Positions 61,946-64,000 of a stretch of DNA of 64,000 nt are shown in pieces; within the stretch, counting starts at the first letter, position 1, and every line of letters starts with the position of its first letter. Both the position numbers and the translations under genes were made by a program. Source of the stretch: Lactobacillus sp. CBA3605 (GTDB lineage Bacteria; Bacillota; Bacilli; Lactobacillales; Lactobacillaceae); the NCBI RefSeq assembly GCF_002970915.1, contig NZ_CP027190.1:1736001-1800000 (forward strand), in the 5' to 3' direction. Below the pieces are notes generated by a model, which was not told the DNA's origin, did no database searches, and was given only the letters and a program-made list of their open reading frames with translations.

Positions 61946-62013
61946 TACGATAATCCTATAAAAGTGGACGTTCTTATTTCTTTTCGTAATTGTTTAATTA
62001 TTGGGCTTATACT
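61946..62013 (+). promoter_or_regulatory. Plantaricin-type regulated promoter of the bacteriocin operon
   Basis: TACGATAAT (61946-61954) and GACGTTCTT (61967-61975) match the plantaricin repeat TACGTTAAT at 8 and 6 of 9 positions and are spaced by exactly 12 bases. TATACT (62008-62013) lies 32 bases further on as the -10; no good -35 is present. The layout matches the site before the pheromone gene. The rest of 61825-62056 shows no ORF. Confidence 0.7.
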
Positions 62014-62056: not shown

Positions 62057-62299
62057 ATGATGATCAAAAAAATGCGAGGTTTATCAAGTTATACTGGACT
62101 CGGGAATCTGAATACGATGGCTTCAACACAATTGGCGACGGTTACGGGTGGAAAGATTGTTAAATATATGACGGTTGGGCCGTTTACACTTTATAAAAAT
62201 ACTAAAACTGGAAAAATCACTCGTCGTCAAACGACGAGTACTGCAAGTTGGACAGCCAAGACGATGGCGTTTGGTTGGGCTAAATCTTTTCACGGATAA
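62057..62299 (+). CDS. Lactococcin B-like bacteriocin precursor with double-glycine leader
   Basis: The 80-residue precursor ends its leader at VTGG (residues 29-32) and would release a 48-residue cationic peptide starting KIVKYM. The mature part follows lactococcin B from GP at residues 9-10 through YKxTxTGK and TAS to GWxKxFH at the end; by hand, against the remembered sequence, about half the positions are identical. The single Cys of lactococcin B is Arg here, so the peptide has no cysteine. AGGGGGG precedes ATG 62057; ATG 62060 is also possible. The leader is longer than usual (about 32 residues). Lactococcins A and B act on the mannose phosphotransferase system, so that target is the inference. 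Confidence 0.85.
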   Translation: MMIKKMRGLSSYTGLGNLNTMASTQLATVTGGKIVKYMTVGPFTLYKNTKTGKITRRQTTSTASWTAKTMAFGWAKSFHG

Positions 62300-62365
62300 T
62301 TAAAATACTATAAACGTGGCTTAGTAATTTGAATTTTGTGGGGGAAAGTATAGGAGACTGATAAA

Positions 62366-62632
62366 ATGAAAAAAAAGATCGATATTCTTAATACCTTGGA
62401 TGTTTTAATTAAGGATCCAACTATTTCAAAGGTTGAACGGCAATTGTTATCAGATGCTAAGCTTGCGCTTGCTAAGGGAATCTACGATGAAAAGGTTGCC
62501 GCAACCTTAAAATCTCAGCTTTCCAAGTTAGCATTGGCGAAGAATTTAACACCGGTACTCGTGCCATTTTTCACTGAGCTTTCTCGCCAATATCTTGGTA
62601 CTGGTAAGCGTGGGATGCTCTATACGATATAG
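62366..62632 (+). CDS. Bacteriocin immunity protein (EntA_Immun-like)
   Basis: An 88-residue, Lys-rich, all-helical protein directly follows the bacteriocin gene with AGGAG before ATG 62366. The pattern of four amphipathic helices and a loose C-terminus (LGTGKRGMLYTI) is that of immunity proteins of the enterocin A / lactococcin A type, which protect the producer by locking the bacteriocin on its mannose-PTS receptor. The helix content and position are the evidence; sequence similarity to known immunity proteins is weak by eye. A terminator follows at 62659. Confidence 0.8.
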   Translation: MKKKIDILNTLDVLIKDPTISKVERQLLSDAKLALAKGIYDEKVAATLKSQLSKLALAKNLTPVLVPFFTELSRQYLGTGKRGMLYTI

Positions 62633-62740: not shown

Positions 62741-62809
62741 GACGTTAATGCATCAAATATGTACGTTTATACAAATATAATAATAAAAATAAAAATTATG
62801 TTATATTAT
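62741..62809 (+). promoter_or_regulatory. Plantaricin-type regulated promoter of the pheromone/kinase operon
   Basis: GACGTTAAT (62741-62749) and TACGTTTAT (62762-62770) each match TACGTTAAT at 8 of 9 positions with a 12-base spacer. TATATTAT (62802-62809) follows after 31 bases as the -10 region. This is the geometry of response-regulator sites in the plantaricin regulon. Confidence 0.85.
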
Positions 62810-62836: not shown

Positions 62837-62989
62837 ATGACTAATTTTAGCAATATTAATAAGTATCAAGATTTGAATCAGGGAGAACTACAACGGGTTA
62901 CAGGTGGAAAGAAGTACGGTAACGATTTAACTATGGGAGTATCTATTGTTCGAAAAGTAAAAAAGCTTATCAAAAAGACGTTTAGATAA
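62837..62989 (+). CDS. PlnA-like peptide pheromone precursor
   Basis: The 50-residue precursor has a double-glycine leader of 24 residues (ending VTGG) and a 26-residue mature peptide, the same mature length as plantaricin A. The mature C-terminal half is amphipathic and strongly basic; it shares the L-x-MG and VKKLxKK core with plantaricin A. It would be secreted, sensed by the adjacent kinase and so induce the bacteriocin genes. ATG 62837 has GAGGAG 9 bases upstream; upstream ATGs fall within that site or the operator. The KYGN stretch is not a pediocin motif, since there are no cysteines. Confidence 0.85.
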   Translation: MTNFSNINKYQDLNQGELQRVTGGKKYGNDLTMGVSIVRKVKKLIKKTFR

Positions 62990-63009: not shown

Positions 63010-64000
63010 ATGATTGAACCCAGTATTATGGTTGGTCTTTTACAGATGTTTTTTCTGATTTTTGGTGTTATGTTCATTTATACGTTCACTATTCAAAGTA
63101 TTAATTTTTGGTCTTTAGTAAAAACTATCGTGTTTAGTATCTGTTTTGCCCTTGTTGGTGGCATCATAAATGATGGTCTTTTTTTGATGGTTTTTGGTTA
63201 TATGTTCTTCTCTGAGTGGGTCAGACAACGAACCCTTAAGATGGATTTTGGACGCTTAAACATTTTGTTGCTATTAATATCGTTACAAAATTTAATTTTG
63301 TCGTTTTCATCAGCGATAAGCAAGTTAATTTTATTTAACATAATGAAGAGTCGTTCTTTAGTAGCATTGTCTAGAGCTGGTACCTTGTTTGTGATTGTTG
63401 AAGTAGGAATTGTGTATACAATTGCACTATTTTTATTGGAGGTATCACTAAAGTACATACGAAAACATCCTGATGTGATAATACAAGTACGACAACTAAA
63501 AATTGATGCTAGAATTTTCGTTATCTTATTTGTATTATTTTTCTCAATTGAATTATTGTTAATGATTAGTGATATGGAAGGTGTTACAGCCAAAATTCAA
63601 ATGACGTTACTTTTCACCTTTACGTTAATGGTTGGGTTGATGGGCTCACAAATGGGATTTATTATAAGAACCTATGCTCGACAACAAGCACTTGAAAATG
63701 AAAAATTGCAAAACCAACAATTGAATAATTATTTGAAGAGCATTGAGCAACAATACATGGCATTAAGACGGTTTAAACATGATTATCGGAATTTGATAAT
63801 TAGTTTAACTGTTAAAAATGAAGACCAAGATATTAGAAGTACAGATGATTATCTAACTAATTTAAAAAAACAAGCTATGCCATCGGTTGATTTGGATGAT
63901 TCTCAAATTGTACAAGTCCAGAATTTAGGAAATGAAGCTGTTAAAGGTTTAATCGTACAGAAATTTTTTGATGCAAGAAAACGCGGTGTGAAATTGAATA
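63010..64000 (+). CDS. Peptide-sensing histidine kinase, AgrC/PlnB type (truncated by window edge)
   Basis: ATG 63010, behind a weak GGTGG, opens a frame of 330 codons that runs off the window. The first ~220 residues hold about six membrane segments. A coiled linker follows, then LRRFKHDYRNLIISL with the phosphorylated His, as in the HPK10 kinases that sense secreted peptides (AgrC, PlnB, ComD). The start is 20 bases after the pheromone gene, so they form one operon. The ATPase domain, response regulator(s) and probably the ABC transporter lie to the right. Codon use is AT-richer than in the upstream genes. Confidence 0.88.
   Translation, partial: MIEPSIMVGLLQMFFLIFGVMFIYTFTIQSINFWSLVKTIVFSICFALVGGIINDGLFLMVFGYMFFSEWVRQRTLKMDFGRLNILLLLISLQNLILSFSSAISKLILFNIMKSRSLVALSRAGTLFVIVEVGIVYTIALFLLEVSLKYIRKHPDVIIQVRQLKIDARIFVILFVLFFSIELLLMISDMEGVTAKIQMTLLFTFTLMVGLMGSQMGFIIRTYARQQALENEKLQNQQLNNYLKSIEQQYMALRRFKHDYRNLIISLTVKNEDQDIRSTDDYLTNLKKQAMPSVDLDDSQIVQVQNLGNEAVKGLIVQKFFDARKRGVKLN

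Follow-up and report, generated by a model that had tools for sequence, protein, structure and literature searches.

A predicted lactococcin B-like bacteriocin gene with a likely immunity gene, probably the left cassette of a plantaricin-type regulon, in a genome assembly without a C39 exporter

Results

The window analysed here, the whole 64,000-nucleotide stretch of Lactobacillus sp. CBA3605 DNA, carries near its right end two adjacent plus-strand open reading frames, 62057 to 62299 (80 aa, ATG start) and 62366 to 62632 (88 aa), both present as the original prediction had claimed. The first encodes a lactococcin B (LcnB)-like bacteriocin precursor, which matches the Pfam Lactococcin profile PF04369 at 42.3 bits (profile search, E 8.3e-11, cut-off 23.1). 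A second ATG at 62060, from which the precursor would have 79 residues, lies by eye 8 nt 3' of an AGGGGGG run, a better spacing than that of the first ATG. Direct reading of the sequence gives a double-glycine leader (62057 to 62152, +) that ends at residue 32 in ...LATVTGG and is followed by K33. Double-glycine leaders obey a rule of hydrophobic positions, and here the hydrophobic residues lie at -4, -7, -12 and -15. At 32 residues (31 from the second ATG) the leader is, as had been noted, unusually long, those of relatives having 18 to 25. The predicted mature peptide (62153 to 62296, +) is a 48-mer with a computed average mass of 5429.3 and pI of 10.8 when unmodified.

The mature 48-mer aligns with LcnB without gaps, 23 of 47 positions being identical, and GP, YKxTxTGK, QT, TAS and GWxKxFH stand in the LcnB register with the core retained as YKNTKTGK...QT...GWAKSFH. 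Two departures named in the original prediction are likewise seen in the alignment, one additional Gly at the C-terminus and Arg for Cys at position 24, where relatives carry Tyr or Met. Positively charged residues at that position reportedly weaken LcnB. The role of LcnB residue 24 is the subject of Venema et al. (1996). BLASTP against LcnB gave 23/42 identical residues (55%), and so both comparisons proposed with the original prediction, BLASTP and HMMER, returned a significant match. A tblastn search of plasmid records reached genes of the lactococcin family at E 5e-12, all 19 records with a match being from Lactococcus. Given the E values of this search and of the PF04369 profile, the precursor is not a chance match, and a chance ORF is further ruled out by the matches to LcnB and of the immunity gene. 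A phage or viral gene was also rejected, there being zero matches among phages or viral contigs; the NCBIfam profiles gave zero matches above cut-off for either the bacteriocin or the immunity frame.

The second frame (62366 to 62632, +) follows directly, the position in which an immunity-type gene had been predicted, and its 88-residue product matches EntA_Immun PF08951 at 29.8 bits (E 7.5e-07, cut-off 22.1). Its model is a predicted four-helix bundle with pLDDT 80.2, falling under 50 in the C-terminal residues 80-88. Foldseek placed MMP1188, of unknown function, first, LciA (5LFI, 30% identity over 71 columns) at rank 4 and PedB (2IP6) at rank 7, all of these matches being weak (E > 0.4), and in a sequence search LciA was first of nine weak matches (E 0.58). 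Directly 5' of the gene there is no repeat pair of the type described below (best score 10), which fits co-transcription with the bacteriocin gene. The 88-residue protein is likely, judged by sequence, the cognate immunity protein and of the EntA/LciA type. The profile, plasmid and genus searches thus bear out the proposal that a genome of Lactiplantibacillus type encodes an LcnB-like precursor and, after it, an immunity protein. Judged by its predicted products, 62057 to 62632 adds a new peptide to the LcnB-like bacteriocins of class IId, together with its likely immunity protein.

The model of the bacteriocin is of low confidence (mean pLDDT 55.9) and has strands at 34-40, 43-48 and 54-58 and a helix at 62-75; with it Foldseek ranked an SH3 domain best and LcnA (lactococcin A, 8hfs_A) second, weakly (E 0.93). 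With E 0.0035, a profile built from five LcnB-like sequences reached lactococcin A of the mannose phosphotransferase (Man-PTS) complex 8HFS; the next-best matches were unrelated glucokinases at 0.027. In PMC11403280, LcnA is described as docking on Man-PTS IIC/IID and opening a pore, LcnA- and LcnB-like peptides as limited in their action to Man-PTS lacking region alpha, and the LcnB-like candidates HB19 and HB20 as inactive, HB19 being also one residue longer than LcnB. In the strain's own genome the Man-PTS IIC of one of three EII-Sor loci (C1:1848405-1849106; positions beyond the right end of the window carry the prefix C1) has the region-alpha motif GGQGRAG, so that the producer may have no need of an immunity gene if the rule stated in PMC11403280 holds. 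The region alpha of this IIC, the extra residue that the 48-mer shares with the inactive HB19 and the Arg at a position that is Cys in LcnB and Tyr or Met in relatives would all suit a peptide that has diverged and acts through a different receptor, or has none, rather than an LcnB-type Man-PTS toxin. We consider this unlikely in view of the retained core and of an immunity protein of the EntA kind that counts LciA among its weak structural matches, and the 48-mer is treated below as an LcnB-like bacteriocin.

The two genes stand leftmost in the 4.7 kb between queT and a CBS-domain gene, where all frames of the locus are open. On the same strand follow a PlnA-like inducing peptide precursor (62837 to 62989; 50 aa, GG leader of 24 residues, mature 26-mer), a PlnB-like GHKL histidine kinase (first part at 63010 to 64000, running to C1:1800353) and a PlnC-like LytTR regulator (C1:1800358-1801110), consecutive as in PlnABC-type loci. 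The opposite strand carries a CPBP protease gene (C1:1801190-1801978) and genes for two GG peptides (C1:1801979-1802155 and C1:1802173-1802325; L004:5979-6325 in the 18-kb stretch that holds the locus). Two-peptide bacteriocins are mature GG peptides with GxxxG. Both GG peptides here mature to 32 residues with GxxxG, and beside the CPBP gene they would make up a probable two-peptide bacteriocin, one of them matching Bacteriocin_IIc below cut-off; plasmid records searched with both peptides gave zero matches.

Two plantaricin loci of the genus served for comparison, L017 (genome G016) and L018 (G011), to which the regulator is 51-53%, the kinase 42-43% (42.5% to that of L017) and the inducer 39% identical, in the last case over 41 aa to the inducer of L017. 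To the annotated plantaricin A precursor of NZ_CP113422.1 the inducer is 41% identical over 41 aa; it falls below the cut-off of PF03047 ComC. NZ_CP113422.1 is a mobilizable L. plantarum plasmid with inducer, kinase and regulator, with CPBP, PlnF and PlnE on the opposite strand, and with exporter and HlyD genes. The order in L017 is similar, with two regulators. What marks L017 as a plantaricin locus is the 98-100% identity of its plnE, plnF, exporter and HlyD genes to those annotated on the plasmid; the labels PlnA to PlnD are applied to L017 as well. Among the genus genomes, the nearest match found for the kinase (52%) lies in G018, at L051:6965-14786, with an adjoining regulator that is 63% identical; GG peptides, a C39 exporter and an accessory protein are also encoded there.

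The locus has a GC content of 33% against 44% in its flanks. By gene the values are 41% for the bacteriocin, 39% for the immunity gene and 31-34% for inducer, kinase and regulator, and as the pair is thus nearer to the flanks than the regulators are, cassette and regulon may have separate histories. The pair makes up the left cassette of a plantaricin-type regulon that was probably acquired.

A plantaricin promoter repeat, TACGTTAAT, is given in PMC2714321 as occurring in tandem pairs. Pairs were scored against it over 18 positions, with the 12-bp spacing taken from L017 and L018, and all three operons of the locus have one. That of the bacteriocin gene, TACGATAAT-N12-GACGTTCTT (61946 to 61975, +), is the weakest at 14/18 and ends 81 bp 5' of the first ATG, with a TATACT noted by eye 3' of it at 62008-62013; GACGTTAAT-N12-TACGTTTAT (62741 to 62770, +; 16/18) stands 5' of the inducer gene, and the pair of the opposite-strand operon (C1:1802406-1802435) scores 15/18. 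At a score of at least 14 the 5.2-kb stretch holds three pairs where 0.12 are expected (0.5 if spacings of 11-13 are all allowed), and at a score of at least 13 it holds five where 1.27 are expected. Markov resamples put the probability of a best score of at least 14 within 130 bp at 0.0015 for the bacteriocin promoter, the corresponding chances being under 0.00005 for the inducer and 0.00005 for the opposite operon. A fourth pair of score 14, at L004 position 8074, lies outside the locus and is taken as chance. The pairs are putative binding repeats of the LytTR regulator, and the bacteriocin and immunity genes are apparently under plantaricin-type quorum sensing.

The genes are ordered as in plantaricin loci up to the point at which an exporter operon would be expected, and the next gene encodes the core CBS protein. 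Across all 4 contigs of the strain's assembly, which total 2,552,584 bases and carry a completeness rating of 100%, the Peptidase_C39 profile PF03412 has 0 matches, the same profile being positive in 8 of 14 control genomes and 6 of 21 genus genomes. The full C39 exporter of G018 as query matched 60 places in the genome, with all alignments running from residue 156 on, so that the N-terminal peptidase part is covered by none, and the frames of the seven ABC_membrane proteins are of 585 to 646 residues against 716 for the G018 exporter. An HlyD-type accessory query gave zero matches in the genome, in a search that had no positive control, and the 18-kb stretch (L004) around the locus has no match to the exporter gene of NZ_CP113422.1 or to its HlyD gene. 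With no exporter found, the locus is most likely silent in killing, the exporter operon having been lost at its right edge, or dependent on the exporter of an unassembled plasmid, and the peptide is probably not secreted unless such an unsampled plasmid supplies one.

Normal secretion on induction, by an exporter encoded on a plasmid missing from the assembly, would agree with the open frames of the chromosomal locus, which suggest a functional locus more than one long in decay. That the strain has plasmids is plausible, since its assembly adds to the 2.49-Mb contig three smaller ones totalling 57,675 bases, and the mobilizable L. plantarum plasmid carries a whole plantaricin-type module, C39-type exporter and HlyD protein included; against this stand the completeness rating of an assembly with the C39 domain on none of its contigs and the absence of C39 also from both further genomes that have LcnB-like genes, G012 and that of L. 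xiangfangensis (G020). We think it rather improbable that the bacteriocin is exported in this way, and keep to a locus that is either silent or reliant on such a plasmid.

A search of 5.8 billion proteins returned three, the window's own precursor and the metagenomic P0002 and P0003 (longest contigs 1,496 and 1,712 bases), each identical to the window 48-mer at 34 of 48 mature positions; the rarity of the peptide rests on this search, which is not exhaustive since neither LcnB nor the L. xiangfangensis peptide was among its results. PF04369 matches 3 of the 21 genus genomes (the window genome, G020 and G012) and 7 of 397 genomes in the Lactobacillaceae, where the four from outside the genus (five matched places) were rejected as LcnB-like, no LcnB core being visible by eye in their frames. 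A scan of named genomes returned one locus from seven pattern matches, that of L. xiangfangensis LMG 26013 (G020), whose mature peptide is identical to the window's at 20 of 48 positions. This peptide was printed in 2017 as potential class IId (PMC5471241, Table 7), and among open-access papers, as far as their text could be searched, peptide sequence strings were matched in that one only, for the L. xiangfangensis peptide. A known plantaricin was thus rejected as an identity for the window peptide, none that has been described matching it, at over 90% or otherwise, among the matches and open-access papers listed. The original prediction, which knew of no described plantaricin of this kind, holds, among those listed, as regards any more than 90% identical and is limited as regards relatives, one having been in print since 2017 (PMC5471241). 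The window peptide is therefore not the first of its kind in the genus; what the present analysis adds is its setting within a plantaricin-type regulon, in an assembly that has no C39 exporter.

The sister genomes differ in what they have kept. L. xiangfangensis has open peptide and immunity frames and a best 12-bp-spaced pair of 12/18. G012 has a TAA within its LcnB-like frame and an open immunity frame, and the upstream repeat pair (16/18) is immediately preceded by a 25-residue piece that shares 72% identity with the final part of the L017 regulator of PlnC type (E 2e-07, two loci having been searched). Among matches at E 1e-10, no kinase in G012 or G020 exceeds 28% identity. The distance from queT to the CBS gene is 58 to 4192 bp in all 20 other genus genomes, and among these 20 stretches a search with the locus proteins (E 1e-3) found the immunity gene alone, and in G019 alone. 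The flanks in G019 are nearly those of the window genome (QueT 100%, CBS 100%, Ldh 99.7%, Pth 98.2%, Ldt 96.7%), and at the same queT-CBS site it has an orphan immunity gene (L021:1465-1755) of 61% identity, preceded by a plantaricin-type repeat pair (14/18), with bacteriocin, inducer and kinase genes absent beside it. From these four genomes it looks as though production was lost repeatedly and immunity retained.

PlnB-like kinases (at least 40% identity, nearly full length) occur in eight genus genomes, five with C39 and three, those of the window, G007 and G013, without. G007 has two such kinases (44% and 40%) and zero C39 matches; G013 has kinases of 41%, 34% and 33% and a partial one, again with zero C39 matches. 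The locus might then be kept mainly for defence, the kinase hearing the inducers of neighbours and turning immunity on, with the bacteriocin genes as decaying passengers. The lone immunity gene and its repeat pair in G019, the combination in G012 of a stopped LcnB-like frame with an open immunity gene, a repeat pair and a regulator remnant, and the recurrence of kinases without exporter in three of the eight genomes would suit such a history. The bacteriocin and inducer genes of the window genome are nevertheless intact, and L. xiangfangensis has an intact peptide gene without a clear repeat pair or a close kinase, so that we hold this explanation to be possible and somewhat doubtful. A bolder version, to which we would give less credence than to any other alternative raised here, is a listening post without exporter, in which a mute plantaricin-type circuit would detect inducers or the peptides of relatives and turn on both LcnB-like and two-peptide immunity, the intact bacteriocin genes having been recently disarmed or their products being released by a non-C39 route.

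Discussion

The reading that we prefer, and put at about 80%, is that of a class IId LcnB-like bacteriocin with its likely immunity protein, encoded by the left cassette of a plantaricin-type regulon, probably acquired, that is without an exporter of its own and therefore most likely silent or plasmid-dependent. We infer how regulation, receptor, pore and immunity would work. An external PlnA-like peptide would be sensed by the kinase, and the LytTR regulator would then bind the paired repeats and turn on all three operons: that of the bacteriocin with its immunity gene, the regulatory one, and a second bacteriocin operon of two-peptide type. A C39 ABC exporter, where supplied, would remove the leader by cleavage behind GG and export the 48-mer, whose three-stranded N-terminal sheet would dock on the mannose phosphotransferase IIC/IID of the target cell while its C-terminal helix opens a pore. 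In the producer the immunity protein would block this pore action.

The window peptide enlarges a very small group, PMC11403280 counting just 3 or 4 LcnB-like members and two tested candidates that were inactive. The natural Arg, Tyr and Met at position 24 provide ready-made peptides for probing the role of that position. Moreover, four Lactiplantibacillus genomes present in turn an intact locus, an orphan pair, a stop-bearing bacteriocin gene with intact immunity gene, and an immunity gene alone at the same site, a comparison that makes loss of production with kept immunity directly testable in lactic acid bacteria.

Among known systems, LcnB and LciB of Lactococcus plasmids (e.g. NZ_CP016736.2) share with the window pair the PF04369 family, the gapless core with 23/47 identities and an immunity gene directly after that of the bacteriocin. 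The window peptide is set apart by Arg for Cys24, the extra C-terminal Gly and a leader of 32 rather than 21 residues, and whereas LcnB on NZ_CP016736.2 lies directly behind an exporter and an HlyD gene, both are absent at the window locus. LciB moreover reaches just 15 bits on PF08951, under the cut-off, and the window immunity protein lies above it. LcnA with LciA and Man-PTS (8HFS), and LciA itself (5LFI), are linked to the pair by the profile match at E 0.0035 and by the weak LciA matches of the immunity protein; they are distant in sequence, and the fold match of the bacteriocin model to LcnA is weak. P0002 and P0003 have the same mature length and the 34/48 identity, and differ in their 18-residue leaders and in Tyr at position 24. 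L. xiangfangensis LMG 26013 is closer in setting, being of the same genus with a PF04369 precursor, a PF08951 immunity gene about 40% identical and no C39, and differs in the low mature identity (20/48), in a location on a contig other than that of queT, and in having no kinase above 28%.

The pln regulons of L017 and NZ_CP113422.1 agree with the window locus in the order of inducer, kinase and regulator, in the CPBP gene and two GG peptides on the opposite strand, and in TACGTTAAT pairs 12 bp apart, the plnE, plnF and CPBP genes of the plasmid giving zero matches to the window locus at E 1e-3. The two architectures diverge at their ends: the exporter operon is found in the pln regulons and is missing from the window locus, and the LcnB-like cassette on the left belongs to the window locus only.
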